From the NCBI RefSeq assembly GCF_009731355.2, contig NZ_AP022810.1:1888001-1952000 (forward strand): 64,000 bases of DNA, in the 5' to 3' direction. Source of the DNA: Desulfuromonas sp. AOP6 (GTDB lineage: Bacteria; Desulfobacterota; Desulfuromonadia; Desulfuromonadales; SZUA-540). The notes under the pieces are model-generated. The model did not search any database. It saw nothing but the letters and a program-made list of their open reading frames with translations, and had not been told where the DNA came from. Position numbers and translations under genes: made by a program. Of the stretch, positions 1,968 through 24,726 are shown one piece after another; position 1 is the first letter of the stretch, and each line of letters opens with the position of its first letter.

Positions 1968-2882
1968 CTATTTCTGCAACGCCGCCGTGAGCACCGGCGC
2001 GAACTGCAGGACATCGGCCACCACCAGGACGTCGGCCACCTCGCCGATGGGGGCGTCCTTGTCCTTGTTGATGGCGACAACGAAGTCCGACTTCTTCATG
2101 CCGGCCAGATGCTGGATGGCGCCCGAGATGCCGCAGGCCACGTAGAGCTTGGGCGAGACGGTCTGCCCCGTGGTGCCGACCTGGCGACTGTGGTCGACCC
2201 AGCCGGCGTCCACCACCGGACGGCTGGCGCCCAGCTCGCCGCCAAACGCCTTGGCCAGCGCTTCAATGACGGCGACGTTGTCCTTCTTGCCGATGCCGCG
2301 CCCGGCGCTGACGATGATTTCGGCCCGGGCCAGATCGACGGCTTTGGCCTCGGCGGGTTCATAGCCTTTAAAGGTCAGGCCCTGTCCGTCAGCCGACACC
2401 TCAAGCTGCTCGATACGCGGCGCTCCCTGCGGCGGCGCCGCGGCAAAAGCACCCGCCTGCACCGTCAGCACCGCCCTTGCCCCGGCAGGTTTGACCTGGC
2501 GACGCATCTTGGCGTTGCAGCAACCCACCTCGAAACCGCCGTCGGCGATAGCGACAATCTCCGTCACCTGCCCGACCTTGAGAGCGGCGGCCACACGCGG
2601 CGCCAGATCCCAGCCGTAGGACGAATGACAGAGGACGACGTAATCCGGCTCTTCCTTTGCCACCGCCGCCAGCACCGCCGCCTTGTGGGCGGCCGGGTTG
2701 TACTCACCCAGCGTCGCCGCATCGACCAGATAGACACGGCCGTCGAATTGGGGCGCGGTGCCCTCGCTGCCGACCAGCACGGCGACCTTCTCAGCCCCGA
2801 GCCTGTCGGCAAAGGTCATCAGCTCATAACTCGAATCGAGGAGTTTGCCCTCGCGAACTTCACAGACCAGTAGTGCTTTCAT
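1968..2882 (-). CDS. etfA: Electron transfer flavoprotein, alpha subunit
   Basis: A 304-aa EtfA. The C-terminal FAD domain shows the family signatures: [62 protein letters not shown] and [18 protein letters not shown]. With EtfB it forms the soluble FAD heterodimer that collects electrons from acyl-CoA dehydrogenases. The gene follows etfB by 25 nt. Here the electrons are expected to pass to the membrane Fe-S oxidoreductase encoded just upstream of etfB. No N-terminal ferredoxin extension of the bifurcating or CarE type is seen, so it is probably a conventional, non-bifurcating ETF. Confidence 0.96.
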
Positions 2883-2907
2883 AGAATCCCCCTCTTGGTT
2901 CCGGCTG

Positions 2908-3684
2908 CTAGCGCAGCACCGCAGTCTTCTCTTTGAGGATGTTCACCAGCTTCAGCGCCGTCTCGCTCGGCTCGCCCTCCAGCACAAGGCCGCCGCCCTT
3001 ACGGGCCGGCGCATAAAACGAGGTCGTCGGCGCCAGGGGCTCTTCCCTCAACAGTTCAGCGACGGGAATGGGCCGGATCTCCTTCTTCTTGGCCTTCATG
3101 ATGTTGGGCAGGGTCGGATAGCGGGGAGTGTTCAGGCCGAGCTGGCAGGTAACCAAAGCCGGCAGGCGCAGATTAACCAGCCCCTTCATCCCTCCTTCGA
3201 GCTCACGCTTGGCCTGGACGACGCCGTCAGCGTAACTGAAGCCCACCAGGGTGGTGGCGCTGGCAAGGCCGAGCAGCTCCGCCACCAGCACCCCGACCTG
3301 GGCCGAGCCCCGGTCCTGCGACTGCATGCCGGTAAAAATGAGGTCGAACCCCTGCTCGCCGGCATAGGCGGCGATAGTGGAGGCGATCTGCCAGGGATCC
3401 TTCTGATGCGCGGCGATGTCCTGCACATGCACCGCCTTGTCGGCCCCCATGGCCAGGGCCTTCTTGATCGCTTCCACCACCCGGTCGGGGCCGATGGAGA
3501 GGACGGTCAGCTCCGCTTCGCCCCCCAGCTGTTCCTTGAGCTGCACCGCCTGTTCGACGGCGTATTCGTCGTATTCGTTCAGGCGCCAGGCCAGGTCGTT
3601 TTCGTCAAACCAGAGACCGTCGGCGGCCGGCTTGAAGCGGGACTCCAGGTCGGGAACCTGCTTGATGCATACCAGTAATTTCAT
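2908..3684 (-). CDS. etfB: Electron transfer flavoprotein, beta subunit
   Basis: A 258-aa EtfB, starting MKLLVCIKQVPDLESRFKP. It has NEYDEYAVEQAVQLKEQ, a nucleotide-binding stretch with MGADKAVHV, and the recognition-loop region VNLRLPALVTCQLGLNTPRYPTLP, which in EtfB docks on the dehydrogenase partner. It ends just short of etfA. Its start codon lies 2 nt after the stop of the Fe-S oxidoreductase gene, so the three are almost certainly co-translated. Function: the partner subunit of EtfA in electron transfer from acyl-CoA dehydrogenases. Confidence 0.96.
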   Translation of the reverse strand: MKLLVCIKQVPDLESRFKPAADGLWFDENDLAWRLNEYDEYAVEQAVQLKEQLGGEAELTVLSIGPDRVVEAIKKALAMGADKAVHVQDIAAHQKDPWQIASTIAAYAGEQGFDLIFTGMQSQDRGSAQVGVLVAELLGLASATTLVGFSYADGVVQAKRELEGGMKGLVNLRLPALVTCQLGLNTPRYPTLPNIMKAKKKEIRPIPVAELLREEPLAPTTSFYAPARKGGGLVLEGEPSETALKLVNILKEKTAVLR

Positions 3685-3686
3685 GG

Positions 3687-5675
3687 CTATCCTCCTATCC
3701 TTTCCACAACAATTTCGGCTAAGTCGCGCACTTTAAGCCGGTCTTCGCAATCTGAGGTCTTGATGCCGTCTTCGAACATGGTCAGACAGAAGGGGCAGTT
3801 GCTGACCAGAATCGGCGCCTCCGTGGCCGCCGCCTGCCGCACCCGCGTCACATTGATGCGCGACCCCAGTTTCTCTTCGGCCAGAATGCGGCCGCCGCCG
3901 GCGCTGCAGCAGAAACTGTCGAGCCCGGCCTGGTCCATCTCCGTCACCTGCCAGCCTGCCGCCTTCAGCACCTCCCGTGGCTCGCTGACGATATCCTTGT
4001 AGCGCCCCAGGTAGCAGGAGTCGTGATAGGTACAGGCCTGTTCAGCCCCCGGCGTCAGCAAAAGATGACCTTCTAGCAGAAGACGGTGGATATAGGTCGT
4101 GTAGTGTTCGACCTCCACCTCCAGCCCCAGATCGCGGTAATCGCGGCTCAAGGTGTTGAAGCAATGCGGACAGGTGGTAACGATGCGGGCAACGCCGCTG
4201 GCCTGAAGGGTCTCGACATTCTCCTGGGCCAGCATCTGGTAGAGATATTCGTTGCCCAGCTTGCGGGCTGGTTCGCCGCAGCACTTCTCGTCCTTGCCGA
4301 GGATACCGACGCGGACGCCGGCGGCCTGGCAGATGCGCACGAAGTTGCGGGCGACCTCGCGGTTGCGCTGGTCAAAGGAGGCGTAGCAGCCGGCGAAGTA
4401 GAGAATGTCGGCTGACTCCCCCGCCCCCACCCGGGCCACATCGAGCCCCTCGGCCCAGTCGCCGCGTCCGGCAAAGGCCATCCCGAAAGGATTGCCGTTC
4501 ACCTCCAGGTTGCTGATGGCCGTGCGCACCTCGTCGCCGGGGAAAGCGCCTTCCATCAGGGTCAGATTGCGGCGCAGCTCGATAATCTTGTTGACGTGTT
4601 CGTTGTTGGCGGGGCAGATGTCCTGGCAGGCGCGGCAGGTGGTACAGGACCAGATGGCCTCCTCCCCCACCGCCTCGACCAGCGGCGCATCCTTGCCGGT
4701 AATCGCCGTCTCGCCCAGTTGCTCGATGAGTTTCATGGGGGAGAGCGGCTTGTCGGTAATATAGGCCGGGCAGCGATCCTGGCAGCGTTTGCAGCTGGTG
4801 CAGGCGTCCGCGTCAAAGAGGTCCTTCCAGGTCAGATCGGCTACGGTAGCGGCGCCGAACTGCTCGGCTTCTTCGTCTTCGAGGTTGAGGGTGGCAATGG
4901 CGCCCTTGGCCTCCAGGGGGGCGAAAAAGGCGTTGGCGCTGGTGTAGAGGATGTGCTTGAGCTTGGTGAAGGGCAGCGCCGCAATGAAACCGAGAGCCAG
5001 CAGCAGATGCAGCCACCAGAGGAAGACGTGCAGGGTGCCGAGGCCCTGTGGTGACAGCCCCGACATCCCCTTGGCCACGAGCAGACCGACGGGAGAAAAG
5101 CGGGCCAGCTCCGGATTCCAGACCAGTTCGGTGGCGGCCATACGGGCCCCCTCAATGAAGAAGCCGGTGATGAGGATGGCGAAGAGCAGGCCGTGAAGCC
5201 AGAGATCTTCGGTCTTCGTCTCCAGGCCGGCCGGCTTGACCAGGTAACGCCGCACGAAGAGGCCAGCCAGCATGAGGATGGCCACGGCGCCGGCGATATC
5301 AAGCGCCAGTGAGAAAATCAGGTAAAAGCTGCCCTGCAGCAGATTGAACTCGAACACCGGTGTCAGCAGGTCGGCCTGCAGCATGACCAGCAGGGTGCCG
5401 ACAAAGAGGGTCACAAATCCCCAGAAGAACAGGGCATGAAAGACACCGCCCTCGCGGACGCGCGCGACCTTGCTTTGTGCCAGCACCTCGCCGACCATTC
5501 GCCGCAACCTCTCCTGCGGGCGATCGAACCGGTTGAGCGGCTTTCCCTGCCGCCAGTGGGCCAGACGTTGCCTGACCCCCCAAGCCATCAGGCCGAAGGC
5601 AGCCATCGCCAGAAGATACATGGGCAGCACCACGCCATGGCCGACATTCCAGTAGATTTCACGGGTGGCTTCCAT
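3687..5675 (-). CDS. Membrane Fe-S oxidoreductase, probable ETF:menaquinone oxidoreductase (EMO type)
   Basis: A 662-aa fusion. The N-terminal roughly 250 residues carry about five to six membrane helices, resembling a NarI-like cytochrome b/gamma subunit. Next come two 4Fe-4S motifs (CTSCKRCQDRCP and CTTCRACQDICP). The C-terminal half is HdrD/GlpC-like, with two CCG domains (CCGEPARKLG, then SFCCSAGGG plus upstream cysteines such as FAGCYAS and YHDSCYLG). This layout is that of the DUF224/CCG family encoded next to etfBA in anaerobes, which passes electrons from reduced ETF to menaquinone in place of ETF-QO. It sits between bcd and etfB. Function is inferred from architecture and context, which agree well. 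Confidence 0.88.
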   Translation of the reverse strand: MEATREIYWNVGHGVVLPMYLLAMAAFGLMAWGVRQRLAHWRQGKPLNRFDRPQERLRRMVGEVLAQSKVARVREGGVFHALFFWGFVTLFVGTLLVMLQADLLTPVFEFNLLQGSFYLIFSLALDIAGAVAILMLAGLFVRRYLVKPAGLETKTEDLWLHGLLFAILITGFFIEGARMAATELVWNPELARFSPVGLLVAKGMSGLSPQGLGTLHVFLWWLHLLLALGFIAALPFTKLKHILYTSANAFFAPLEAKGAIATLNLEDEEAEQFGAATVADLTWKDLFDADACTSCKRCQDRCPAYITDKPLSPMKLIEQLGETAITGKDAPLVEAVGEEAIWSCTTCRACQDICPANNEHVNKIIELRRNLTLMEGAFPGDEVRTAISNLEVNGNPFGMAFAGRGDWAEGLDVARVGAGESADILYFAGCYASFDQRNREVARNFVRICQAAGVRVGILGKDEKCCGEPARKLGNEYLYQMLAQENVETLQASGVARIVTTCPHCFNTLSRDYRDLGLEVEVEHYTTYIHRLLLEGHLLLTPGAEQACTYHDSCYLGRYKDIVSEPREVLKAAGWQVTEMDQAGLDSFCCSAGGGRILAEEKLGSRINVTRVRQAAATEAPILVSNCPFCLTMFEDGIKTSDCEDRLKVRDLAEIVVERIGG

Positions 5676-5732: not shown

Positions 5733-6872
5733 TTAGCCCAGGAGCAGTTTGGAGATGACCACACGCTGCACCTCGTTGGTCCCCTCGTAGATTTCGGTGA
5801 TCTTGGCGTCGCGGTACATGCGCTCGACCTCGTAGTCGCAGATGTAGCCGTAGCCGCCGTGGATTTGAATGGCTTCCTTGGTCACATAGGTCGCCGTCTC
5901 GGAAGCATGCATCTTGCACATGGCCGATTCCATGGTGTAGTTCCTGCCGGCATCTTTGAGACAGGCCGCCTTGTAGGTCAGCAGCTTGCTCGTTTCGATG
6001 CGCGTCTTCATGTCGGCCAGCTTGAACTGGATCGCCTGAAACTCGCAGATAGCCTGGCCGAACTGCTTGCGCTCCTTGGAATAGGCCAGGGCCCGCTCAA
6101 AGGCGCCTTCGGCAATTCCCAGGGCCTGGGAAGCGATGCCGATGCGGCCGCCATTGAGGGTGTCCATGGCGACGTTGAAACCCTTCCCTTCCTGGCCCAG
6201 CAGGTTTTCTACCGGGATGCGGACGTTGTCGAGGGCAAAAGCGGTGGTGTAGCTGCCCCGGATGCCCATCTTGTTCTCGTTTTTGAGAATGGAAACCCCC
6301 GGCGTTTCGAGATCGATGATAAAGGCGCTGATCCCCTTGTGTTTGAGGCTGCGGTCATAGGAAGCCAGCAGCACGCCGGTGCCCAGATAACCGCCGTTGG
6401 TGATAAAGGTCTTGCTGCCGTTGATGACGAATTCATCTCCCTCGCGACGATACGTGGTGGCGGTGCCGCCGGCGTCACTGCCGGCATCGGGCTCGGTCAG
6501 CAGGAAGCAGCCTATTTTTTCACCTGTATTGAGGGCCGGCAGCCACTTCTGTTTCTGCTCCTCGGTGCCGAAGGTATAGATCGGCCCGGAGCAGAGGGAG
6601 GTGTGGGCAGAGATGAGGACGCCGCTGGAAGCGCAGGCCTTGGAGACCTCTTCCACCACGATAGCGTAGGAAAGCATGTCCATGCCGGCACCGCCGTACT
6701 CTTCCGGCAGGTAGCTGCCGAGCAGGCCCATCTCGCCTATCTGTTTCACCAGGGCGTCGGGAATGGCGTGATCCTCGTCTATTTTCATGGCCAGCGGCTT
6801 GATCTCCTTGTTGACGAAATCCCGCACGCTGTCCTGCAGCACCCTGTGATCCTGTGAAAGTTCAAAATTCAT
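5733..6872 (-). CDS. Short-chain (butyryl-CoA-type) acyl-CoA dehydrogenase
   Basis: Full-length 379-aa acyl-CoA dehydrogenase. It has FLLTEPDAGSDAGGT (FAD/substrate motif), NGSKTFITNGGYLG, and the C-terminal QIHGGYGYICDYEVERMYRD. The motif ITEIYEGTNEVQR contains the Glu expected as catalytic base in short-chain and butyryl-CoA dehydrogenases. It oxidises a short acyl-CoA to the 2-enoyl-CoA and hands electrons to ETF. It lies 57 nt upstream of the EMO-type oxidoreductase and 30 nt downstream of crotonase. Butyryl-CoA is the most coherent substrate given the neighbouring hbd and thiolase genes, but isobutyryl- or isovaleryl-CoA cannot be excluded. Confidence 0.95.
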   Translation of the reverse strand: MNFELSQDHRVLQDSVRDFVNKEIKPLAMKIDEDHAIPDALVKQIGEMGLLGSYLPEEYGGAGMDMLSYAIVVEEVSKACASSGVLISAHTSLCSGPIYTFGTEEQKQKWLPALNTGEKIGCFLLTEPDAGSDAGGTATTYRREGDEFVINGSKTFITNGGYLGTGVLLASYDRSLKHKGISAFIIDLETPGVSILKNENKMGIRGSYTTAFALDNVRIPVENLLGQEGKGFNVAMDTLNGGRIGIASQALGIAEGAFERALAYSKERKQFGQAICEFQAIQFKLADMKTRIETSKLLTYKAACLKDAGRNYTMESAMCKMHASETATYVTKEAIQIHGGYGYICDYEVERMYRDAKITEIYEGTNEVQRVVISKLLLG

Positions 6873-6902: not shown

Positions 6903-7685
6903 TTACTTCCCCTTGAAGGCCGCTTTGCGCTTTTCCACGAAAGCCCCCATCCCCTCTTTCTGATCCTCCGTGGCGAAAAGCACGCCGAAGAGGGAAGCCT
7001 CGTAGCGGAAGCCGTCCTCCTTGCCCATGTTAAGCCCGTTGACGATGGCGTTCTTGGCGTAGGCGACACCGAGGGAGCCGACGGAGGCGATGGCTGATGC
7101 CGTCTCCATCGCCTTGGCAAGCAGCTCTTCCGGCGCGAAGACCTCGTTGACGATCCCCCAGGTACAGGCTTTTGACGCCTCGATCATACGGCCGCTGAAA
7201 ATGAGCTCGCTGGCCCGGGCCGAGCCAAGGCGGCGGGCCAGGTTCTGGGTGCCGCCGAAACCGGGGATGATGCCGAGGGTCACTTCGGGGAAGCCAAGTC
7301 GGGCTTTTTCCGAGGCATAGATGAAGTCGCAGGCCAGGGCCAGTTCGAGGCCGCCACCGAGGGCATAGCCGTTGACGGCGGCGATCACCGGTTTGCGCAT
7401 CTTTTCCATCATCAGCATGACCCGCTGCCCCTTGAGGCCGAACTGCTGCCCCTCGAAAGCATTCATCCCGGCCATTTCCTTGATATCGGCGCCGGCCACG
7501 AAGGCCTTGTCGCCAGCACCGGTGAGCACCACCACTTTTACCGCATCGTTGCGGTCCAGCTCATAGAGAGCGCACTCCAGCTCGCTCAAGACCGTGCTGT
7601 TGAGAGCGTTGAGGGTCTTGGGGCTGTTGATGGTCAGCAGGGCGATCCCGTCGTTTATATCGATCAGCAGCAGACTGTTGTCCAT
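6903..7685 (-). CDS. Enoyl-CoA hydratase (crotonase family)
   Basis: A 260-aa crotonase, typical length. The oxyanion-hole motif FVAGADIKEMAGM is present. The first catalytic Glu lies in GYALGGGLELALACDF and the second in LGFPEVTLGIIPGFGG, the canonical pair for 2-enoyl-CoA hydratases. It hydrates crotonyl-CoA to 3-hydroxybutyryl-CoA. It is 16 nt downstream of hbd and 30 nt upstream of the acyl-CoA dehydrogenase gene, in one operon. Confidence 0.95.
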   Translation of the reverse strand: MDNSLLLIDINDGIALLTINSPKTLNALNSTVLSELECALYELDRNDAVKVVVLTGAGDKAFVAGADIKEMAGMNAFEGQQFGLKGQRVMLMMEKMRKPVIAAVNGYALGGGLELALACDFIYASEKARLGFPEVTLGIIPGFGGTQNLARRLGSARASELIFSGRMIEASKACTWGIVNEVFAPEELLAKAMETASAIASVGSLGVAYAKNAIVNGLNMGKEDGFRYEASLFGVLFATEDQKEGMGAFVEKRKAAFKGK

Positions 7686-7701: not shown

Positions 7702-8547
7702 TTAGTAGGTGTAGAATCCGCGGCCAGATTTGCGCCCCATATAGCCGGCGTTGACCATCTTCACCAGCAGCGGGCAGGGCCGGTACTTGGGGTCCTTAAA
7801 GCCGTCGTAGAGAACATTGGCGATGGCCAGCACCGTGTCGAGGCCGATGAAGTCGGCCAGGGTAAGCGGCCCCATGGGCTGGTTGGTGCCCAGCTTCATG
7901 CCCTTGTCGATATCCTCCGCCGTGGCGATCCCCTCATAAAGGGCGAAAACGGCTTCATTGATCATGGGGATGAGCACGCGGTTGACGATGAAGCCGGGGT
8001 AGTCCTGGGAGACAGCCATCTCCTTTTCCAGCTTCTTGACCAGCGCCGACGTGACCTCAAAGGTCTCGTCGCTGGTGGCGTGGCCGCGGATGACCTCGAC
8101 GAGCTTCATCACCGGCACCGGATTCATGAAGTGCATGCCGATGACCTTCTCGGGCCGTCCGGTTACGGCGGCGATCTTGGTGATGGGAATGGAGGAGGTG
8201 TTGGAGGCGAGAAAGGCTTCAGGCTTGACGATGCCGTCGAGCTGACGAAAGATTTCCAGCTTGAGGGTTTCGTTCTCGGTGACAGCCTCGATGGCGAAAT
8301 CGACTGCCGCCAGTTCTTCCATGGCCTTGGTGGTCTTGATCCGGCCGAGAGATTCGGTCACCAGGCTGTCGGCGATGGCGCCTTTCTTCGCCTGGCGCTC
8401 CAGGTTCTGCCGTATGGTGGCCACCGCCCTGTCGAGCTGGTGCTGGGCGATGTCGTACAACACGACTTCATATCCGAACTGGGCAAAGACGTGGGCGATG
8501 CCGTTGCCCATCTGTCCTGCCCCCAATACGCCAATCGTGGTAATCAT
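7702..8547 (-). CDS. hbd: 3-hydroxybutyryl-CoA dehydrogenase
   Basis: A 281-aa single-domain-pair 3-hydroxyacyl-CoA dehydrogenase, the length of clostridial Hbd/PaaH. It has the N-terminal NAD-binding GVLGAGQMGNGIAHVFA, the catalytic-His motif GMHFMNPVPVMKLVEVIRG, and QDYPGFIVNRVLIPMINEA in the C-terminal domain. It oxidises 3-hydroxybutyryl-CoA to acetoacetyl-CoA. It is not fused to a hydratase, unlike FadB. It follows the thiolase gene by 14 nt. Confidence 0.95.
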   Translation of the reverse strand: MITTIGVLGAGQMGNGIAHVFAQFGYEVVLYDIAQHQLDRAVATIRQNLERQAKKGAIADSLVTESLGRIKTTKAMEELAAVDFAIEAVTENETLKLEIFRQLDGIVKPEAFLASNTSSIPITKIAAVTGRPEKVIGMHFMNPVPVMKLVEVIRGHATSDETFEVTSALVKKLEKEMAVSQDYPGFIVNRVLIPMINEAVFALYEGIATAEDIDKGMKLGTNQPMGPLTLADFIGLDTVLAIANVLYDGFKDPKYRPCPLLVKMVNAGYMGRKSGRGFYTY

Positions 8548-8561: not shown

Positions 8562-9743
8562 TCAGGCGATACGTTCAAAAATGACGGCCACGGCTTCGCC
8601 GCCGCCGATGCACAGAGTGGCCAGACCATAGCGCAGCTGACGCTTCTCCAGTTCCCGGATGAGGGTGGTCGCCAGACGGGCCCCGCTGGCACCGATGGGA
8701 TGACCGATGGCGCAGGCGCCGCCATGGACGTTGACCTTATCCAGTGGAATGTTATGGGCCTTGATGGCCAGCAGGGCCACGGAAGCAAAGGCCTCGTTGA
8801 TTTCAAAGAGATCGATATCGGCCACCGACAGTCCGGCCTTGGCACAGACCTTGGCGATGGCGCCGATGGGGGCCTCGGGGAACTCGTCGGGATGGCGGCT
8901 TTCGGTAGCCTGGGCCACTATCCGGGCCCGCGGCTTCAACTGGTGCCGCCTGAGCGCCTCTTCACCGGCCAGCAGCAGCATGGCGGCGCCATCGTTGATG
9001 GTGGAGGCGTTGCCGGCGGTGATGGTGCCGTCCTTTTTGAAGACGGCCCGCAACCCGGTCAGGCGGTCGAAATCGACCTTGAAGGGTTCCTCGTCCTTCT
9101 CGATGACCGTTTCTCCCCCCCTGCCCTTTTTGACCACGGGGACGATCTCTTCAGCGAAGACCCCGCTCTCAACGGCGGCCTGGGCCAGGCGGTAGGAGCG
9201 CAGCGCCAGTTTGTCCTGCTCCTGACGGCTTAGACCGTGGCGCTCGACGCTCGCTTCGCCGATCTCCCCCATGTGGCGTCCGGTATAGGGGTCGGTAAGA
9301 CCGTCGAAGACCATCAGATCGACAAGTTCACCGTTCCCCATGCGATAACCCGTGCGAGCCTTGCTGAGAACATAAGGGGCCAGGGACATGCTTTCCATGC
9401 CGCCGGCGACGACCAGCTGCGACTCGCCGAGCCGGATTGAATCAGCGCCCAGCATGACAGCCTTCAAGCCGCTGCCGCAGACCTTGTTGATCGTCAGGGC
9501 GGCCGCTGAATCGGGGATACCGGCCCCACGCATGGCTTGCCGGGCCGGGGCCTGACCGCAACCGCCGGCCAGGACCTGACCGACAATGACTTCGTCTACC
9601 GCCTCAGGCGACAGGGACGCTGCCTGCAGCACCCCCTGGATGGCCGTCGTGCCCAGAACAGCGGCAGGAACATCGGCCAGGACGCCTCCAAAGGAGCCGA
9701 AAGGCGTTCTCTTGGCCTCCACCACATAAACATCAGCACTCAT
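8562..9743 (-). CDS. Acetyl-CoA acetyltransferase (thiolase)
   Basis: A 393-aa thiolase II. The nucleophilic Cys is in INKVCGSGLKAVMLGA, the active-site His in VHGGACAIGHPIGASG, and the second Cys in LATLCIGGGEAVA. It splits acetoacetyl-CoA into two acetyl-CoA when the operon runs oxidatively. It is the first gene of the operon. The ATG at 9743 follows a strong AGGAGGTG ribosome site, and a near-consensus promoter with an operator lies 30-58 nt upstream. Confidence 0.95.
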   Translation of the reverse strand: MSADVYVVEAKRTPFGSFGGVLADVPAAVLGTTAIQGVLQAASLSPEAVDEVIVGQVLAGGCGQAPARQAMRGAGIPDSAAALTINKVCGSGLKAVMLGADSIRLGESQLVVAGGMESMSLAPYVLSKARTGYRMGNGELVDLMVFDGLTDPYTGRHMGEIGEASVERHGLSRQEQDKLALRSYRLAQAAVESGVFAEEIVPVVKKGRGGETVIEKDEEPFKVDFDRLTGLRAVFKKDGTITAGNASTINDGAAMLLLAGEEALRRHQLKPRARIVAQATESRHPDEFPEAPIGAIAKVCAKAGLSVADIDLFEINEAFASVALLAIKAHNIPLDKVNVHGGACAIGHPIGASGARLATTLIRELEKRQLRYGLATLCIGGGEAVAVIFERIA

Positions 9744-9772: not shown

Positions 9773-9801
9773 ATAATAAATTTCGTTTACGTACATGTCA
9801 A
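9773..9801 (-). promoter_or_regulatory. Promoter of the thiolase-led beta-oxidation operon
   Basis: On the minus strand a perfect -35 TTGACA (9796-9801) and a -10 TATTAT (9773-9778) are separated by 17 nt. This gives a predicted start near 9766 and a leader of roughly 23 nt to the thiolase ATG. The 16-bp operator-like site overlaps the -35 box and the first part of the spacer, which would suit repression. Confidence 0.75.
9786..9801. promoter_or_regulatory. Operator-like site, copy 1 (candidate MerR-family target)
   Basis: TTTACGTACATGTCAA, an imperfect palindrome (10 of 16 positions match its reverse complement). It differs by a single base from the site at 21356-21371 and by three from the site at 21515-21530. 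All three lie in promoter regions of this island. Binding by the MerR-family protein of 21569-21994 is inferred. Confidence 0.65.
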
Positions 9802-9863
9802 TCAAAAATAAAACTTTATTTTAATTTTACGAAGTGAACACAGATTATCGTGGCGAATTTACG

Positions 9864-11691: not shown

Positions 11692-14600
11692 CTACATGTT
11701 GCGCCGGTAGCGCCCGCCGACCTCGAAAAGGGCCTGGGTGATCTGACCGAGAGAAGCGACTTTGACCGTTTCCATCATTTCGGCAAAGATATTGCCGCCG
11801 GTAACGGCCACCTCTTTCAGGCGCTCGAGGGCCTGTGGCGCCTGGTCTTTGTTCTTCTCCTGAAAGGCGCGCAGATTGGCAATCTGCCTCTCCTTTTCCT
11901 CCGGGGTAGCCCGCGCCAGTTCACCGGGAATATCGTAGCCTGCCTCATCGGCCCGGGGGCTGAGGAAGGTGTTGACACCGACGATAGGCAGGTCGCCATT
12001 GTGTTTTTTGTGCTCATAGAGCATTGATTCATCCTGAATTTTGCTGCGCTGATACTGGGTCTCCATGGCCCCGAGCACGCCACCGCGATGGTCGAGGCGC
12101 TCGAACTCCTGCAGGACCGCCTCCTCCACCAGGTCGGTCAGCTCCTCAATGATGAAAGATCCCTGCACGGGGTTTTCATTCCTGGTCAGCCCGAACTCCT
12201 TGCTGATGATCATCTGGATGGCCATGGCCCGCCGCACCGACTCCTCTGTAGGCGTCGTCACCGCCTCATCGTAGGCATTGGTGTGCAGCGAGTTGCAGTT
12301 GTCATAGATGGCGATGAGAGCCTGCAGAGTCGTGCGGATGTCGTTGAAGTCCATCTCCTGGGCGTGCAGGGAACGCCCCGAGGTCTGAATGTGGTACTTC
12401 AATTTCTGGCTGCGCTCGTTGGCCCCGTACTTCTCCCGCATGGTCACGGCCCAAAGGCGCCGCGCCACCCGGCCGATGACCGAATACTCCGGGTCGAGGC
12501 CGTTGCTGAAGAAGAAAGAGAGGTTGGGGGCGAAATCATCGATATGCATCCCCCGCGACAGATAGTACTCGACATAGGTGAAGCCGTTGGACAGGGTCAA
12601 TGCCAGCTGGGTGATGGGGTTGGCCCCCGCTTCGGCGATGTGGTAGCCGCTGATGGACACCGAGTAGTAGTTGCGCACCTTCTGGTCGATGAAGTACTGC
12701 TGCATGTCCCCCATGATCTTGAGAGCGAAATCGATGGAGAAGAGGCAGGTGTTCTGGCCCTGGTCCTCTTTGAGAATATCGGCCTGCACGGTGCCGCGCA
12801 CGTTCTGCAGGGTGGCGCTCTTGATCTGCGCCACCTCTTCCGCATTCGGCTGCCTCCCCTGCTGTTCCACAAATTTGTCGACCTGCTGACCGATGGCCAC
12901 ATTGAAGAACATGGCCAGCATGGCCGGGGCCGGGCCGTTTATGGTCATGGAGACGCTGGTGGACGGCGCGCACAGGTCAAAGCCGGCAAAGAGCTTGCCC
13001 ATGTCTTCGACGTTGCAGATGGAGACACCACTCTCACCGACCTTGCCGTAGACATCGGGCGGCGTATCGGGATCGGCCCCATAGAGGGTGACGCTGTCAA
13101 AAGCCGTGGAGAGTCGCTTGGCGCCGTCGTCCTGGCAGAGATAGTGGAAGCGCCGGTTGGTGCGCTCGGGGCTCCCCTCCCCGGCGAACTGCCGCTTGGG
13201 ATCCTCCTCAGCCCGTTTGAAGGGGAAGACGCCGGCCGTGTAGGGGAAGTAGCCTGGCAGGTTCTCCAGCATGAGCCAGCGCAGGATGTCGCCCTGGTCG
13301 GTGTAGCGCGGCAGGCTGACCCGGGGGATACGCGTACCCGAGAGGCTGGTACTGAAGAGCTCGGTGCGGATCTCCCGGTCGCGCACCTTGGTCACCAGGG
13401 CATCCTGACGGTAGGCCTGCTTCAGTTCATCCCAACAATCGAGCAACTGGCGCGGCTCTTCATGCAGCATGGACTCCGTCTTTCGTATCAGGCCAGCCAC
13501 CTCTTCAGCCGCCGCCAGCCCCTCCGGCAACTGGGCCAGGGTGGCTTTGAGCTGGCCGAGGGCGCGGGCCACCTTGCTCTGCTGTTCGACATCCTTGTGG
13601 TAACTCCGCACTGTCTGGGCAATCTCCCCCAGGTAATGGATGCGGTCGGCGGAGATGACCGTCTTGCTCAGACTGTCGCCGTCGCTCACCTGCATTTTTG
13701 ATTGCCAGCCCAGTTGCCGTTTCTCATTGAGCTTCTCCAGCACGGCCAGGTAGAGGACGGAGACGCCGGGGTCGTTGAACTGGGAGGCGATGGTGCCATA
13801 GACGGGAATCGCCTCATCAGGGACATCAAACTGATTGCGGTTGCGCCGCACCTGCTTCTTGACGTTGCGCAGGGCGTCCTCGGAACCCTTGCGTTCGAAC
13901 TTGTTGATGGCGACCAGATCGGCGAAGTCGAGCATATCGATCTTCTCCAACTGGGTCGGCGCCCCAAACTCGGAAGTCATCACGTAGAGCGAAAGATCGC
14001 AGATGGGCACGACGGAGGCATCGCCCTGACCGATGCCGGAGGTCTCGACGATGACAAGGTCGAAACCCGAGGCGCGCACCACGTCGAGGGCATCCTGAAT
14101 GGCCAGGGACAGCTCGGAGCGTGAATCCCGCGTGGCCAGGGAGCGCATGTAGACCCGTTTGCCGGCGATGGAATTCATGCGGATGCGATCCCCCAGCAGG
14201 GCGCCGCCCGTACGCTGCCGGGAGGGATCGACGGCGAGGATAGCGACGCTCTTGTCGGGAAAATCCCGTAAAAAACGCAAGACCAGTTCATCGCACAGGG
14301 AACTCTTGCCGGCGCCGCCAGTGCCGGTCACTCCCAGCACCGGCACCGAGCGGGCCATGGCCTTGACCTGGTCGCGCAGTCGGGCATAGCCGCCTTCGCT
14401 GCCAGCGTGAACCGAGTCTTCGGCCAGGGAGATAATGGTATTGATGGCCCGGATGTCCTGCTGGGCCAACTTCTGCAGCTCTTCGTCGGGATGGCGCTCC
14501 AGGCTGAAATCGCACTGCTTCAGCATGAAGTTGATCATCCCCTGCAGTCCCATGCGGCGGCCGTCTTCGGGGGAGAAGATCTTGGTCACCCCGCAGGATT

Positions 14601-14943
14601 CGATCCTCTTGATCTCCTCGGGGATGATGACGCCGCCGCCGCCGCCGAAGACCTTGATGTGGCCGGCGCCGCGTTCGCGCAGCAGATCCATGGTGTACTG
14701 GAAGAATTCGACATGACCGCCCTGGTAGCTGCTGATGTTGATACCGTGGGCGTCTTCCTGAATGGCGGCCGTGACGATCTCGTCGACGGAACGGTTATGG
14801 CCAAGATGGATCACCTCGGCGCCGGAGGCCTGCAGCAGGCGGCGCACAATATTGATGGAAACGTCGTGGCCGTCAAAAAGACTGGTGGCGGTCACAAAAC
14901 GCAGTTTATGCTGGCTTTTGTAGGGTGCTATCTGTTGGTGCAT
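11692..14943 (-). CDS. icmF: Fused isobutyryl-CoA mutase (IcmF-type B12 enzyme)
   Basis: A 1083-aa fusion in the IcmF order. First comes a B12-binding domain (residues about 10-145) with FDGHDVSINIVRR, D24-x-H26 being the cobalt-ligand motif. Next is a MeaB-like G-protein chaperone domain with the P-loop GVTGTGGAGKSS at 204-215. The last part is a methylmalonyl-CoA-mutase-like TIM barrel (from about 560), with RFHYLCQDDGAKRLSTAFDS and a long SISGYHIAEAGA region. IcmF enzymes interconvert isobutyryl-CoA and n-butyryl-CoA with adenosylcobalamin; close relatives act on isovaleryl/pivalyl-CoA. The neighbouring CoA-transferase, TRAP transporter, butyrate oxidation operon and cobO support a short-chain branched acyl-CoA. 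Methylmalonyl-CoA is less likely because MCM lacks this domain order. Start ATG at 14943 behind GAGGAGGGAACC. Confidence 0.93.
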   Translation of the reverse strand: MHQQIAPYKSQHKLRFVTATSLFDGHDVSINIVRRLLQASGAEVIHLGHNRSVDEIVTAAIQEDAHGINISSYQGGHVEFFQYTMDLLRERGAGHIKVFGGGGGVIIPEEIKRIESCGVTKIFSPEDGRRMGLQGMINFMLKQCDFSLERHPDEELQKLAQQDIRAINTIISLAEDSVHAGSEGGYARLRDQVKAMARSVPVLGVTGTGGAGKSSLCDELVLRFLRDFPDKSVAILAVDPSRQRTGGALLGDRIRMNSIAGKRVYMRSLATRDSRSELSLAIQDALDVVRASGFDLVIVETSGIGQGDASVVPICDLSLYVMTSEFGAPTQLEKIDMLDFADLVAINKFERKGSEDALRNVKKQVRRNRNQFDVPDEAIPVYGTIASQFNDPGVSVLYLAVLEKLNEKRQLGWQSKMQVSDGDSLSKTVISADRIHYLGEIAQTVRSYHKDVEQQSKVARALGQLKATLAQLPEGLAAAEEVAGLIRKTESMLHEEPRQLLDCWDELKQAYRQDALVTKVRDREIRTELFSTSLSGTRIPRVSLPRYTDQGDILRWLMLENLPGYFPYTAGVFPFKRAEEDPKRQFAGEGSPERTNRRFHYLCQDDGAKRLSTAFDSVTLYGADPDTPPDVYGKVGESGVSICNVEDMGKLFAGFDLCAPSTSVSMTINGPAPAMLAMFFNVAIGQQVDKFVEQQGRQPNAEEVAQIKSATLQNVRGTVQADILKEDQGQNTCLFSIDFALKIMGDMQQYFIDQKVRNYYSVSISGYHIAEAGANPITQLALTLSNGFTYVEYYLSRGMHIDDFAPNLSFFFSNGLDPEYSVIGRVARRLWAVTMREKYGANERSQKLKYHIQTSGRSLHAQEMDFNDIRTTLQALIAIYDNCNSLHTNAYDEAVTTPTEESVRRAMAIQMIISKEFGLTRNENPVQGSFIIEELTDLVEEAVLQEFERLDHRGGVLGAMETQYQRSKIQDESMLYEHKKHNGDLPIVGVNTFLSPRADEAGYDIPGELARATPEEKERQIANLRAFQEKNKDQAPQALERLKEVAVTGGNIFAEMMETVKVASLGQITQALFEVGGRYRRNM

Positions 14944-15522: not shown

Positions 15523-15535
15523 ATCCTGTCTCCTT

Positions 15536-16049: not shown

Positions 16050-17363
16050 TCAGCCAATAAGGGCTGGGAGGAAGGTCACGATGGCTGGGAAAACGTACAT
16101 AATGGCCATCCCCAGGATAAAGAGCCCCACCATCGGCCAGGCTCCCCCATAGACGTCGTCCAGGGTCAGTTCCGGCATCGCCCCCTTGAGGGCAAAGATC
16201 GTGTAACCGAAGGGAGGAGTCAGACTCCCCAGTGTCAGATTGATGAGAAAGAGCATCCAGAACCAGACGGGATCGAAATTGTAGACCTGCAGCAGGGGGT
16301 CGTAGATCGGGATGGCCACCAGCATGACGGCGAAGAGATCGACGAACATACAGAGGATGAAAGGGACCAGCATGAGCACGAAAAAGGTGCCCACCAGGGG
16401 GAGGTCCAGTTCGGAGGCCATCCGAACCAGCCCGCTCGAAGCGCCCGTGAAGGACAGCAGTTGGCCGAAGAGCATGGAGCTGGCCATGATGACCAGGATC
16501 ATGGTGCTGACCGAACAGGTGCCCAGCACCGCCTCGTAGAGCATTTTGAAGGAGAGTTTGCGAAAGACCGCCGCCGCCAGCATAGCGCCGAGCACACCCG
16601 TCGCCGCCGACTCCGTCGGTGTTACGATCCCCATGAGAATCAGTCCCATGACCGAGAAGATGACGATGAGAAACGGCAGGGTGCGGGCCAGGGCCGTAAA
16701 AAATTCGCGGGCGCTCACCCTCTCCTTCGCAACCCCGTCGCCAGCCGGCTCCAGGGCCGGATTGCGCAGGAGGCGGATATAGACGTAGATGACCATGATG
16801 ACCGCCATCATGATGCCCGGCACGATGCCGGCGATGAGCAGCTTGGCGATGGAGACATCCACCATGGAGCCGACCATGATGACCAGCAGGCTCGGCGGGA
16901 TGATGGGTGCCAGGCTGGCACCACCCAGTATCGCACTGATGGAAAGACGGGTATCGTAACCCCGCGCATCCATGGTCGGCATCACCGAGCGACCCAGCAT
17001 GGCGGCCACCGCCACCGCCGAACCACTCAGGGCGCCGAAGACCGTAGACAGGGACGTGACAAGGACGTAATTGCGCCCGCGCACGTTGCCTACCATTTTA
17101 TCGATGGAATCGATGAGAATCTCCACCGCATTGGAGCGAAAAAGGATTTCCCCCATGAGAATAAAGAGGGGAATGGCCATCAGTGATTCCTGGGTTATGG
17201 TCTGGTAGATGCTGTTGGCAAACATGCCAAACCCACTGCTGCCGAACAACAGGAAGACACCGATGACATTCACCACGAGGAAAGCAACAAAGACCGGCAT
17301 TCCTATGGCAAACAAGCTCAGCAGCACGACAATGGCAATCGATAAAGTGACGCCCCAATCCAT
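16050..17363 (-). CDS. dctM: TRAP transporter, large permease subunit (DctM type)
   Basis: A 437-aa polytopic membrane protein with about 12 hydrophobic segments. It shows DctM hallmarks: FGALSGSAVAVAAMLGRSVMPTM and ILGGASLAPIIPPSLLVIM, and near the C-terminus LGSLTPPFGYTIFALKG. It is the ion-driven permease of a tripartite ATP-independent periplasmic transporter. It lies 10 nt after dctQ. With DctP and DctQ it should take up a carboxylate, and its place beside a CoA-transferase and mutase suggests a short-chain fatty acid. Confidence 0.95.
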   Translation of the reverse strand: MDWGVTLSIAIVVLLSLFAIGMPVFVAFLVVNVIGVFLLFGSSGFGMFANSIYQTITQESLMAIPLFILMGEILFRSNAVEILIDSIDKMVGNVRGRNYVLVTSLSTVFGALSGSAVAVAAMLGRSVMPTMDARGYDTRLSISAILGGASLAPIIPPSLLVIMVGSMVDVSIAKLLIAGIVPGIMMAVIMVIYVYIRLLRNPALEPAGDGVAKERVSAREFFTALARTLPFLIVIFSVMGLILMGIVTPTESAATGVLGAMLAAAVFRKLSFKMLYEAVLGTCSVSTMILVIMASSMLFGQLLSFTGASSGLVRMASELDLPLVGTFFVLMLVPFILCMFVDLFAVMLVAIPIYDPLLQVYNFDPVWFWMLFLINLTLGSLTPPFGYTIFALKGAMPELTLDDVYGGAWPMVGLFILGMAIMYVFPAIVTFLPALIG

Positions 17364-17373
17364 GAGATTTCTC

Positions 17374-17901
17374 CTATACTTCGCCCGGAGGGTTGGGTCT
17401 CAACCCCTCACGCAGAAACTGGAACCCGCTCAGCAGAAAACCCAAGGGAATGACCGTAGATATCCACCATTTGGGTATCGGGTTGACCCACATGGTCGCA
17501 ATGCCGCGCTGAAACTGGCGAAAAGATTCGAGCCCGGCGATAGTGAAAACGGCGATACACACCAAAAAACCCAGAAAAGCGATACTCCGATAAACCAACA
17601 GCTTTCTTTTTTGCGGCAGTTTCTCGATGATGATGGTGATGGCCACGTTGCCGTTGGCCCTGGTGATTTCAGGCAGCGCCAGCATGACGGTCAGGGCGAA
17701 GAGCCATTGGTTGACATCACTGGACCAGTTGGTCGGGGCATTGAAGAAGTAGCGCATGGAGACTTCGTAGAGGATCAGGGACACCATGCCTGCCAGGGCC
17801 AGCCCGCTCAGGACGTAACTCACCCGCGTCAACAGGTCGAGGATGCCGGCCATCCCTTTCAGGATGGCCGGCTGGGAATTGTTGAGGCTCCCAGTGTTCA
17901 T
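17374..17901 (-). CDS. dctQ: TRAP transporter, small permease subunit (DctQ type)
   Basis: A 175-aa membrane protein with four helices. It contains YEVSMRYFFNAPTNWSSDVNQ, the characteristic DctQ stretch between helices 1 and 2. The start codon overlaps the dctP stop by 4 nt (17898-17901), so translation is coupled. It bridges the binding protein and the DctM permease in the inner membrane. Confidence 0.93.
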   Translation of the reverse strand: MNTGSLNNSQPAILKGMAGILDLLTRVSYVLSGLALAGMVSLILYEVSMRYFFNAPTNWSSDVNQWLFALTVMLALPEITRANGNVAITIIIEKLPQKRKLLVYRSIAFLGFLVCIAVFTIAGLESFRQFQRGIATMWVNPIPKWWISTVIPLGFLLSGFQFLREGLRPNPPGEV

Positions 17902-18881
17902 CGCGTCATACCTTTTTCGACCGCCAATTCACGGAACTTGGGTCCGGCCGCAGGGGAAGACTGCTTGGCCATGTCCCAGAGGCCATTATTCCAGTATATT
18001 TCCACCTTTTCCTTGTCCTCCGGGTGCATGTTGGTCACCTTCATGCCCTGGTTCTGCAGAAAGGCAATCTCCTCCTCGACGAGGTCATTGAAAAACTCCA
18101 GGCTGTCGAGCTCGGTCTTCCTGCCGGCCTCATCGATCCACTGACGCTGTTCCGGGGTCAGAGCGTTGTATTTATCCAGATTCATCGCGATCATCATGGA
18201 GATGGAGCCGAAGGTCGGACGCACCATATAGTTGGCGACTTCCTGCCATTTGAAATCCTTGACCCCGACCAGGGTCCAGGCCGCACCGTCAATGACACCG
18301 CGCTGCAAAGAGGTATAGACGTCACCACCGGCCATGGTCACCGGCGAGCCTCCCAGGGCCAGGATGGTGTTTTGCAGGCTGGGGTTGCTGCGCATCTTCA
18401 GGCCAGCCAGACTCGGCTTGTTGCCACTTAAGGGATTGCGCGTAATAAAATGATAGGGGGCGACGGGAGGGAGAGCGACGAGCTTGACGCCCAGCTTGTT
18501 GTACTCTTTGTCCAGGAAGTCGAAGAGGCCCGACTCACGACGCTTGGTCGGATCGGCCAGGGTCGCGTCCATGCCGACCCCTACACTGATGGTCCCGGCG
18601 TGGTAAGTGGCATGAGTGAAGGACAGGTCAAAGATGCCGGCCTGCAGAGGCTGGAACTGCTCGAAGGTCGGTATGACATCGGGGCCGTGGAAAGCCACCT
18701 TCATTTTGCCCCCGGATATCTCCTCCAGGTTCTTGATCATCTTGGCGGTAGCACCTACGTTGAAGATGAAGTTCTCATGGAAAGCGGACAACATGCGCAG
18801 TTGGGCGGCAAATGTGTTGGACGAAAAAGTCAGAATCATAAAGACAACGGCGATCAATCCCACATACCTGTTTTTTTTCAT
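17898..18881 (-). CDS. dctP: TRAP transporter substrate-binding protein (DctP type)
   Basis: A 327-aa periplasmic binding protein. It has a signal peptide (MKKNRYVGLIAVVFMILTFS, likely cut after NTFA or NTFAA) and the TAXI/DctP-like two-lobe fold. The conserved arginine that salt-bridges the substrate carboxylate in DctP proteins is visible in LAGLKMRSNPSLQ (about R164), followed by GGSPVTMAGGDVYTSLQRGVIDGA. This predicts a carboxylate ligand, and the operon content suggests a short branched or linear fatty acid. It lies 78 nt downstream of the IclR gene. Confidence 0.93.
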   Translation of the reverse strand: MKKNRYVGLIAVVFMILTFSSNTFAAQLRMLSAFHENFIFNVGATAKMIKNLEEISGGKMKVAFHGPDVIPTFEQFQPLQAGIFDLSFTHATYHAGTISVGVGMDATLADPTKRRESGLFDFLDKEYNKLGVKLVALPPVAPYHFITRNPLSGNKPSLAGLKMRSNPSLQNTILALGGSPVTMAGGDVYTSLQRGVIDGAAWTLVGVKDFKWQEVANYMVRPTFGSISMMIAMNLDKYNALTPEQRQWIDEAGRKTELDSLEFFNDLVEEEIAFLQNQGMKVTNMHPEDKEKVEIYWNNGLWDMAKQSSPAAGPKFRELAVEKGMTR

Positions 18882-18959: not shown

Positions 18960-19685
18960 TTAACCCGATAAGTACGTATAGCTCTTCAGTGTTTGCCGAC
19001 CGAGATGACGGCTGTCCTGCCATCCGTACATCTCGCCCAAATTTCTGGCACAGCGCGAAAGCAGGGGCAGCAGCTCCTCGGTGATATGCGCCTCGTTCAT
19101 GCGGCAGACAGGTACCGCCAATACCAGCGTCATTTGCCGCAACTCATGCTGCCCTGCAAAGACGACAGACAGCGTCGACACCTCGTCAAGCAGTGTTTCG
19201 TCCGCCCCATAAATACGGCAGATAGGAGATTCTTCCAGCAGGCGCCCCTCTGTTACCGGAAAAGAAGCCCCCAGGCAACCGATGGCCCTCACCACCTGGC
19301 GGCACTCGACCGCGTCGATGAGCAATGCCATCTCGTCATTCATCCTGCCCAGATAGACCGCCTCGCCGGTGGCGGCCGCCAGTTCCTCCAGCACGGGGCG
19401 AAGTTTTGACGCCCGGCCGTTATCTGAGAGTATGCCCCGTGCCAGACTGAATGCCGCCGGCCCCAGGTGATAGTCTCCGGCGCTGTTCCTGGCGACAAAG
19501 TTCTTGATCTCCAGCGTATGCAACATGCGAAAAACTTTGTATTTGCTGGCGCTCGTCATCTTCTCCACAAAGGTTGTCATCTTTTCGCCGGAGGGCGACA
19601 CCGTCAGCAGATGGAGGATATCCAGCACGAACTGGACATTCTGCATCTCGTATTTATGGGTGAATTTTCCGGCGCTCGCTGACAT
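18960..19685 (-). CDS. IclR-family transcriptional regulator
   Basis: A 241-aa regulator. It has an N-terminal winged helix-turn-helix (residues about 14-75, SASKYKVFRMLHTLEIKNFV as recognition region) and a C-terminal IclR effector domain, with GEAVYLGRMNDEMALLIDAV. It starts 3 nt after the CoA-transferase stop, so it is co-transcribed with the pathway it probably controls. IclR proteins often sense the pathway acid or its CoA ester. Together with the divergent MerR protein this gives the island two regulators. Confidence 0.9.
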   Translation of the reverse strand: MSASAGKFTHKYEMQNVQFVLDILHLLTVSPSGEKMTTFVEKMTSASKYKVFRMLHTLEIKNFVARNSAGDYHLGPAAFSLARGILSDNGRASKLRPVLEELAAATGEAVYLGRMNDEMALLIDAVECRQVVRAIGCLGASFPVTEGRLLEESPICRIYGADETLLDEVSTLSVVFAGQHELRQMTLVLAVPVCRMNEAHITEELLPLLSRCARNLGEMYGWQDSRHLGRQTLKSYTYLSG

Positions 19686-19688: not shown

Positions 19689-21248
19689 CTACTCCCAGCT
19701 GTCGATCTTCATGGTTCCTTTGGTGGCCAGCGACTCCTGCATGCGAAAGGCCTTGAAAAGCATGTGGGGCTCGTGGCCGACACCGCGGGCAAAGCAGTCC
19801 TTTTCGGCGCGCTCGTAGTATTCGGTCAGGATCGGCCGGTAATCGGGGTGAGCGCACTTGGCGATGATCTCCCGCGCCCGTTCGCGCGGGCAGAGGCCGC
19901 GCAGATCGGCCAGACCCTGCTCGGTGACGAGGATGTCGAGATCGTGCTCGGTGTGATCGACATGGGTGGCGAAGGGAACGACACATGTAATCCCCGTCGG
20001 GTCTGTCTTGGAGGGGCGCGTCGATGGCGTATGCATGATGGACAGCGCCGCGTTACGTAGAAAGTCGCCGGAACCGCCGATGCCGTTGACCATGCGGGTG
20101 CCACCCACCAGGGTCGAATTGGCGTGGCCGTAGATATCGAATTCCACCGGGGTGTTCATGGCGATCACCCCCAGACGGCGGATGGGCTCGGGATTGTTGC
20201 TCACCTGCATGGGGCGCAGGATGACCTTGCTGGCGTACTTGTCCCAGTTCTGGTAGAAGCGCTCAAAACCCGGCTCCGACAGGGAGAGTGAGGTGGACGA
20301 GGCGAAGTCGAGTTTGCCCGAATCGAAAAAGTCGAGCATGGTGTCCTGGATGACCTCGGTCCAGACCTTGAGATTGCTGAAGGGACCGTTCACCAGACCG
20401 CCGACCACGGCGTTGGCGATATTGCCGACCCCCGACTGCAGGGGGAGCAGGTTTTTCGGCAACCGCCCCGCTTTCACCTCCGCCCCGAAGAAGTCGAGGA
20501 TGTTGGCGGCGATGCGCTCGGAAATCTCGTCCGGCGGGCCCAACGGCCGCCCGCGGTCCGGTTTCTGGGACTCCACAATGGCGATAATCTTGTCGTGATC
20601 ACAGGGGACATGCAGGGTGCCGATGCGATCATCGACCCGGCTGATCAGGTAGGGCTTGCGATGGGGCGGCTTGTCGAGCATGACGATGTCATGCAACCCT
20701 TCGAAGGAGGGAATGGCCGTGTTGATCTCGATGATGAGCTTGTCCGAGTACTGAATGACCTCCGTGGCCGCGCCGATGGAGCCGGCCAGGATAATGCTGC
20801 CGTCCTCGGCAATGCCCGAGGCTTCCACCAGACCAAGATCGAAACCGCCTCCCCTGCCCTTGGTGTAGTAGCCGTAGCCGAGATCCTGGGCATAGAGGGA
20901 CAGATGCTTGTCTCCCATGCGCACGGTACCGTCGTTGACCTGCTTCTGGATCACCTTTCCCGTCTGGTAGGGCCAGCGCTTGTCGGTCATCTGAAGGGAG
21001 GCCCAGCGATCCTCAACCTCCTGACCGATGGAGGCGCCGATAAAGAGATTGAAGCGCATCTTGCCCTGCAGGTTGTTCTGCTCAACGTAGTCAGCCAGGG
21101 CCAGAGGCACCACCTTCGGATATCCGACCGGGGTAAATCCCGACCAGCCCAGATCCATGCCGTTCTTAAAAAACGGAATAGTGTCCTCCGGCTTCATCAC
21201 CCTGGCGTGCAGGCTCTTTTTCCTGATTCGGCTGAGAAATTCAGACAT
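19689..21248 (-). CDS. Acetyl-CoA hydrolase/transferase family CoA-transferase
   Basis: A 519-aa single-chain class I CoA-transferase of the Cat1/Ach1 (succinyl-CoA:acetate, propionyl/butyryl-CoA:acetate) family. It has NLFIGASIGQEVEDRW, QSGVGNIANAVVGGL, the likely catalytic Glu in KVWTEVIQDTMLDFF, and NGIGGSGDFLRNAALSI near the C-terminus. It would activate the imported acid by CoA exchange with acetyl- or succinyl-CoA. The ATG at 21248 follows GGAGGAGGG; an open frame upstream would run into the promoter and is rejected. It is the first gene of the right operon. Confidence 0.92.
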   Translation of the reverse strand: MSEFLSRIRKKSLHARVMKPEDTIPFFKNGMDLGWSGFTPVGYPKVVPLALADYVEQNNLQGKMRFNLFIGASIGQEVEDRWASLQMTDKRWPYQTGKVIQKQVNDGTVRMGDKHLSLYAQDLGYGYYTKGRGGGFDLGLVEASGIAEDGSIILAGSIGAATEVIQYSDKLIIEINTAIPSFEGLHDIVMLDKPPHRKPYLISRVDDRIGTLHVPCDHDKIIAIVESQKPDRGRPLGPPDEISERIAANILDFFGAEVKAGRLPKNLLPLQSGVGNIANAVVGGLVNGPFSNLKVWTEVIQDTMLDFFDSGKLDFASSTSLSLSEPGFERFYQNWDKYASKVILRPMQVSNNPEPIRRLGVIAMNTPVEFDIYGHANSTLVGGTRMVNGIGGSGDFLRNAALSIMHTPSTRPSKTDPTGITCVVPFATHVDHTEHDLDILVTEQGLADLRGLCPRERAREIIAKCAHPDYRPILTEYYERAEKDCFARGVGHEPHMLFKAFRMQESLATKGTMKIDSWE

Positions 21249-21342: not shown

Positions 21343-21371
21343 TTTGTAATTTGCATTTACGTGCATGTCAA
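21343..21371 (-). promoter_or_regulatory. Promoter of the CoA-transferase/TRAP/IcmF operon
   Basis: On the minus strand, -35 TTGACA (21366-21371) and -10 TACAAA (21343-21348) are separated by 17 nt, the same geometry as the thiolase promoter. The leader to the ATG at 21248 is about 88 nt. The operator overlaps the -35 box and spacer. Confidence 0.65.
21356..21371. promoter_or_regulatory. Operator-like site, copy 2
   Basis: TTTACGTGCATGTCAA, identical to the 9786-9801 site at 15 of 16 positions and placed identically against its -35 box. Confidence 0.65.
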
Positions 21372-21514
21372 CGATTTTTTGAACGTTTTTTTGTTTTACA
21401 TTTTTCACAGATTTTACCAATGGCTAACTATCTGATTTTTTTGTCACTTTTCTCCATAACACTGTTATTTTTTTAAATTATGACCGCAAAAGTAAAATTT
21501 TAAGTTTCATTTTA

Positions 21515-21530
21515 TTTACGTCAATGTCAT
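21515..21530. promoter_or_regulatory. Operator-like site, copy 3 (merR autoregulation)
   Basis: TTTACGTCAATGTCAT, 13 of 16 positions shared with copy 1. It ends 38 nt before the merR start codon, a natural place for autoregulation. It is the weakest of the three matches. Confidence 0.5.
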
Positions 21531-21568
21531 ACTGCGCAGGAAAAAATAAATCATCTGCGAGGGACGCC

Positions 21569-21994
21569 ATGAGTGAAGACATACCGCCAACCGAAGAAAT
21601 TGTTCCTATTGGCACGCTGTGCAAAGATCTGGGGATTTCGACACGGACGCTGCGCTACTGGGAAGAGGTCGGCATCATCGAGTCAGTAGAACGACTTGAC
21701 CGGGCCAACCGAGGCTATACACCGTATATGGTGAGAAGAATCAGATTCATCATTAAACTGCGGGACCTGGGCCTGACCATCAAAGAAATGCAGCACCTGT
21801 ATGAGGTTTACGGCAATGCCAAAAAGACGGATCGGCTCATCCCCGAACTCATCGGCATCTTCGACCAGCATATCCATACCATCGACGACAGGGTTGCCAA
21901 GCTGAATTCCCTGCGCAGAGACATCGTCGAATATCGCGAACGCATGCTGACCAAACTGAAAGAAGCCATGCAGAAAGAGTCCACCGGCACCTGA
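21569..21994 (+). CDS. MerR-family transcriptional regulator of the island
   Basis: A 141-aa MerR-type protein. The N-terminal winged helix (residues 11-80) has IGTLCKDLGISTRTLRYWEE, and the central part has YMVRRIRFIIKLRDLGLTIKE. A long helical dimerisation segment follows (QHIHTIDDRVAKLNSLRRDI). No metal-binding Cys is seen. The start at 21569 has GAGGGA seven nt upstream; a longer frame from 21524 would begin inside operator copy 3. It is divergent from the CoA-transferase operon. LiuR-type MerR proteins control acyl-CoA and branched-chain acid degradation in other proteobacteria, which fits this setting. A terminator follows at 22022-22064. Confidence 0.9.
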   Translation: MSEDIPPTEEIVPIGTLCKDLGISTRTLRYWEEVGIIESVERLDRANRGYTPYMVRRIRFIIKLRDLGLTIKEMQHLYEVYGNAKKTDRLIPELIGIFDQHIHTIDDRVAKLNSLRRDIVEYRERMLTKLKEAMQKESTGT

Positions 21995-24554: not shown

Positions 24555-24726
24555 GACAACCTCCCTCGAAAGACATGACATCGGCATAGGGCAATACACT
24601 TCGAACAACAGGATGATGAGCCTTAAATGTTAGTGTATAGCCTGGGCCGTTCATGTAAAGAAGGTAACATGCAGCTAAAGCCATTTGCCCGAAGGCGCTT
24701 TATTGCAGGATAAAAAACTTCAGCCA

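Follow-up and report, generated by a model that had tools for sequence, protein, structure and literature searches.

The 16-base repeat described here from Desulfuromonas sp. AOP6 very probably serves as the binding site for a small MerR-type regulator that controls butyrate- and isobutyrate-degrading genes. The switch appears to be conserved across Geobacter and its relatives, usually with an extra DNA element 22 bases upstream. Three copies of the repeat lie in the window, i.e. the whole 64,000-nucleotide stretch that was analyzed (contig NZ_AP022810.1, positions 1,888,001 to 1,952,000), and each is predicted to act as an operator for the MerR-family protein of 141 aa encoded next to them (Table 1). 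Judging from sequence, we hold the complete model to be likely: three MerR operators, steric repression released by an acyl-CoA, autoregulation of merR, and a probable cooperative contribution from the upstream palindrome.

Table 1. Features of the predicted MerR regulon (positions in the window)
Feature	Position	Strand	Remarks
EtfA and EtfB	1968..3684	-	
Membrane Fe-S oxidoreductase (NarI-like + CCG domains)	3687..5675	-	probable Etf:quinone link
Short-chain acyl-CoA dehydrogenase	5733..6872	-	
Short-chain enoyl-CoA hydratase (crotonase)	6903..7685	-	
3-hydroxybutyryl-CoA dehydrogenase	7702..8547	-	
Acetyl-CoA acetyltransferase (thiolase)	8562..9743	-	first gene of operon 1
Operon-1 -10 hexamer TATTAT	9773..9778	-	17-nt spacer
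Predicted operator 1	9786..9801	-	TTGACATGTACGTAAA reading toward thiolase operon; first 6 bases = -35
Upstream palindrome, operon 1	9809..9823	-	TAAAATAAAGTTTTA, 8/8 to TAnAAnnnnnTTnTA; starts 22 nt 5' of TTGACA start
Fused isobutyryl-CoA mutase (IcmF)	11692..14943	-	
TRAP transporter DctP, DctQ, DctM	16050..18881	-	
Protein with partial IclR effector domain (241 aa)	18960..19685	-	
Succinyl/butyryl-CoA:acetate CoA-transferase	19689..21248	-	first gene of operon 2
Operon-2 -10 hexamer TACAAA	21343..21348	-	17-nt spacer; conserved in G002
Predicted operator 2	21356..21371	-	TTGACATGCACGTAAA reading toward CoA-transferase/TRAP/IcmF operon
Upstream palindrome, operon 2	21379..21393	-	CAAAAAAACGTTCAA, degenerate, 6/8
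Predicted operator 3	21515..21530	+	TTTACGTCAATGTCAT, over probable extended -10 of merR
merR, 141-aa MerR-family regulator	21569..21994	+	no conserved cysteine centre

The three sites and their promoters

The positions of operators 1 and 2 and their single-base difference are as given in the preliminary description of this DNA. A genome-wide search, a check set in advance, found only these two exact matches to TTTACGTRCATGTCAA in 3.27 Mb, showing that the 16-mer is not common at random loci. Within the window, matches with up to three mismatches number five versus 0.43 expected. Read as a palindrome, the sites conform to TTTACGTnnATGTCAA, of which the genome contains two exact copies, at the -35 boxes of the two acyl-CoA operons. 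The copy before the divergent merR gene had been called looser; it is present, but the term undersells it, as it is one mismatch away from the palindrome. It departs from the 16-mer at the last base and at the two centre bases, which are free, and a first-order Markov model puts the chance of so good a palindrome match in the 197-bp intergenic stretch at about 4e-4. A relaxed palindrome (two mismatches) was rejected as a means of defining the regulon, the genome scan being too noisy (123 matches per strand versus 78 for the reversed control). In a congener (G002) all three sites are kept inside conserved blocks; those at 21356 and 21515 are identical, and that at 9786 differs at one free centre base only.

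The claimed overlap with a TTGACA -35 box followed by a 17-nt spacer holds for both operon promoters, namely TTGACA-17-TATTAT (9801-9773) for operon 1 and TTGACA-17-TACAAA (21371-21343), with a weak -10, for operon 2. In each, the -35 is one half of the palindrome. The same geometry had also been ascribed to merR, where it fails: site 3 covers a probable extended -10 (TGtCATACT at 21525-21533; TGtCATAAT in G002), not a -35. A minus-strand TTGACG-16-TAAAAT overlaps this site as well, and site 3 could be part of a possible second, minus-strand promoter of operon 2.

The regulator and its predicted targets

The 141-aa protein combines an N-terminal MerR winged HTH with the MerR DNA-binding region, and its fold is clear from Pfam matches above cut-off (PF13411, 54.9 bits; PF09278, 41.5 bits; PF00376, 35.9 bits). 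It lacks the cysteines typical of classical metalloregulators; 55 of 68 orthologues contain no cysteine at all, and the sole recurrent one, at position 18, occurs in 12. Convergent with merR is a gene pair for a ferredoxin-type Fe-S protein and a DUF362 protein (22114-24608), which is kept in G002 (91-92% identical).

Operon 1 encodes, in order, thiolase, 3-hydroxybutyryl-CoA dehydrogenase, crotonase, acyl-CoA dehydrogenase, the Fe-S oxidoreductase, EtfB and EtfA. Operon 2 encodes the CoA-transferase, the IclR-like protein, TRAP DctP/Q/M, a universal stress protein, a DUF6125 protein, IcmF, and nitroreductase-like and peptidase-like proteins. From strand and spacing, each set is inferred to form a single transcript. 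IcmF carries B12, MeaB-like G-protein and mutase domains on one chain and aligns with a solved IcmF (PDB 4xc6) over nearly its whole length. The IclR-like protein shows only a partial effector-domain match, and few relatives have one (L079, L139, L140). The DUF6125 protein (14977-15654) shows 63-91% identity in most relatives that have it, and across the class its gene usually adjoins IcmF. The gene content of these blocks, which recur in many Geobacter-type loci, points to isobutyrate, butyrate or a related short acid as the substrate.

Phyletic association of the site with MerR

Across the class, the motif occurs with at most one mismatch within 400 bp upstream of 51 of 76 distinct MerR-like genes, and near merR orthologues the TTGACA half of the main site always faces the divergent operon. 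In 60 orthologue loci (984 kb) the pattern YTTACGTnnAWGTCAA has 60 exact matches and its reverse none; shuffled patterns gave a mean of 0 matches in a 20-locus test. Of the 77 sites obtained when one mismatch is allowed, 72 fall between genes according to simple ORF calling, the ORFs of relatives having been called mechanically. A survey of 277 genomes of the class found the exact motif in 79 of the 88 with a close MerR orthologue, in 12 of the 49 that have the distant clade alone, and in 6 of the 140 with neither. The contrast of 79/88 with 6/140 (Fisher 4e-43) remains large, though the genomes are related and the value overstates their independence. The units behind the sites are syntenic, one kind containing IcmF or the CoA-transferase and the other being thiolase-Hbd-Crt-acyl-CoA-dehydrogenase, and both acyl-CoA blocks recur in many Geobacter-type loci, often with a site heading each. 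The earlier proposal that the local MerR protein reads these sites is strongly supported by its orthologues' upstream motifs, the co-occurrence across genomes and the synteny of the acyl-CoA units.

Site and protein are nevertheless separable, since nine of the 88 genomes lack the exact motif despite a close MerR, and in Geomonas-type loci no site lies within 400 bp of the MerR genes that adjoin etfAB. This etfAB-near sub-group, 58-64% identical and without the 16-mer within 400 bp upstream (L106, L115, L116, L121, L123, L126, L127, L133, L141), may use another site.

A second palindrome upstream of the promoter

Alignment of the promoters revealed a second palindrome, TAnAAnnnnRTTnTA, overlooked in the preliminary description, which starts exactly 22 nt before TTGACA. 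At this offset, 48 of 67 promoters match at 7/8 or better (42/58 once similar flanks are removed), versus 0-6 at other offsets and 0.5 expected after shuffling. The same element is found at three sites of a paralogous MerR regulon in the same genome. Class-wide, the element followed by 7 nt and TTGAC has 188 matches in 271 genomes (reversed control, 11), and 158 of the 188 carry ACGTAA at the operator position. On these counts the element belongs with MerR operators and not with promoters in general. By itself, the upstream palindrome gives 23 matches versus 8 in the control, and the non-operator matches that were inspected have no shared spacing to a TTGACA.

The element is A/T-rich, and its position, from about -57 to about -43, is that of UP elements, raising the alternative that it is a UP-type element for the RNA polymerase α subunit and unrelated to MerR. 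We consider this unlikely: the element is a palindrome at fixed spacing, the operator's ACGTAA accompanies 158 of the 188 class-wide matches, the reversed control has 11 matches in all, and a general UP element would be expected at many other TTGACA promoters. A bipartite operator is the likely interpretation. The right arm of the upstream palindrome, AYGTTnTA, has an ACRT core in common with the operator half-sites, which hints at, without proving, a second MerR dimer bound there.

Repression versus activation

Consistent with an ordinary promoter, the 67 aligned sequences share TTGACA-17-TATA(A/G)T, i.e. a -10 with conserved T/A/T at 17-bp spacing, with the dyad centred 2.5 bp beyond the -35 hexamer. 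Given its MerR-type HTH and DNA-binding domains, and since most characterized MerR proteins activate, the local protein might instead be an activator of the classical kind, untwisting the promoter upon ligand binding. Such activators require a 19-20-bp spacer and a dyad located 7-8 bp beyond the -35 (PMC5045206), a geometry that these promoters do not have, their dyad not being centred in the spacer. As the metal-binding cysteines are also absent, classical activation appears quite improbable. The spacer, the dyad position and the lack of a cysteine centre in the orthologues make steric repression the better reading. The original suggestion of a repressor is thus favoured by the overlap with the -35 and the ordinary 17-bp spacer, and parallels the repressor role stated for LiuR (PMC3223726).

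Under the steric repression model, the MerR dimer would bind the palindrome, of which the ATGTCAA half would double as the -35 of each target promoter, so that bound MerR would keep RNA polymerase from a promoter whose 17-bp spacing is normal. MerR would be released by a short-chain acyl-CoA derived from the growth substrate, e.g. isobutyryl- or butyryl-CoA as the pathway suggests. Derepression would then permit uptake and activation of the acid (TRAP transporter, CoA-transferase), isomerization by IcmF and β-oxidation to acetyl-CoA, with electrons passing to Etf and the membrane oxidoreductase. Autoregulation would be mediated by site 3, which covers the merR -10. Where the second palindrome is present, as in most relatives, a second MerR dimer or a dedicated partner would probably bind it cooperatively.

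A probable paralogous MerR regulon

A MerR paralogue encoded at genome positions 919175-919555, missed earlier together with its sites, is 44% identical to the local protein. It shares a related operator and an upstream palindrome at equal distance, but differs in the operator variant (TTGACGTnnACGTAA or TTGACCTnnACGTAA) and in its longer-chain fatty-acid gene set. Next to it are genes for an AMP-ligase, a FadB-like 3-hydroxyacyl-CoA dehydrogenase, an acyl-CoA dehydrogenase and an Fe-S oxidoreductase. In the two genome regions concerned, 904001-922000 and 1174001-1186000 (L075, L076), operators of this related form, again with the upstream palindrome, occur at the paralogue's locus and before a FadL-type porin gene. 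The set is likely a fatty-acid regulon.

That another regulator, e.g. this paralogue or the IclR-like protein of operon 2, reads the 16-mer is the least probable alternative: similar sites with the same upstream element do lie beside the paralogue and at another two promoters (TTGACCTTAACGTAAG; TTGACGTAAACGTAAT and TTGACGTGAACGTAAG), and cross-talk between MerR paralogues is plausible, but the ATGTCAA form follows the local MerR clade, AAGTCAA or related forms predominate in genomes that have the distant clade alone, and an IclR-like gene is found in few of the loci. We tentatively entertain, as a possibility short of an even chance, that in Desulfuromonadia two paralogous MerRs, for short- and longer-chain acyl-CoA catabolism, act as cooperating dimers on a 38-bp bipartite operator whose palindromes are 22.5 bp apart, one of them integrated with the -35 box.

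Relationship to characterized MerR-family regulators

LiuR is described as a MerR-family repressor of acyl-CoA catabolic operons that acts via a shared box (PMC3223726, PMC5343134), and in Rhodospirillum rubrum it is linked to growth on butyrate (PMC7238569). By description, the local protein resembles LiuR, the regulator of branched-chain amino acid utilization in Proteobacteria, in its small size and MerR-family membership, in having targets in acyl-CoA catabolism and in the palindromic form of its site. The window operons, in contrast, are not liu/ivd branched-chain amino acid operons, the targets being IcmF, CoA-transferase, TRAP and butyryl-CoA oxidation genes; also by description, the operator half doubling as the -35 and the extra upstream palindrome set the local system apart. 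The protein is best read as a repressor of the LiuR kind that acts on (iso)butyrate catabolism. Plasmid-borne regulators from the protein search were set aside as LiuR candidates; those examined adjoined metal-resistance genes.

With the classical metalloregulators (MerR, CueR, CadR, ZntR) the protein shares the MerR_1 and MerR-DNA-bind domains, and CadR and related chains are among its nearest solved structures by sequence. It differs from them in scoring far below NCBIfam cut-offs, in lacking conserved cysteines, in its 17-bp rather than 19-20-bp spacer and in a dyad off the spacer centre.

The genome papers on Geobacter metallireducens and G. bemidjiensis leave MerR unmentioned in their main texts, and the passages found there on palindromes concern other sequences. 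In the open-licence literature we found no description of this regulator, operator and regulon for butyrate/isobutyrate oxidation, or of a bipartite operator architecture of this kind in the MerR family. For the oxidation of butyrate and isobutyrate in Geobacter-type anaerobes, the analysis predicts a regulator together with its operator and its regulon. The conserved bipartite site bears on how MerR-family repressors may bind DNA, and the promoter is a candidate acyl-CoA-responsive element for use.
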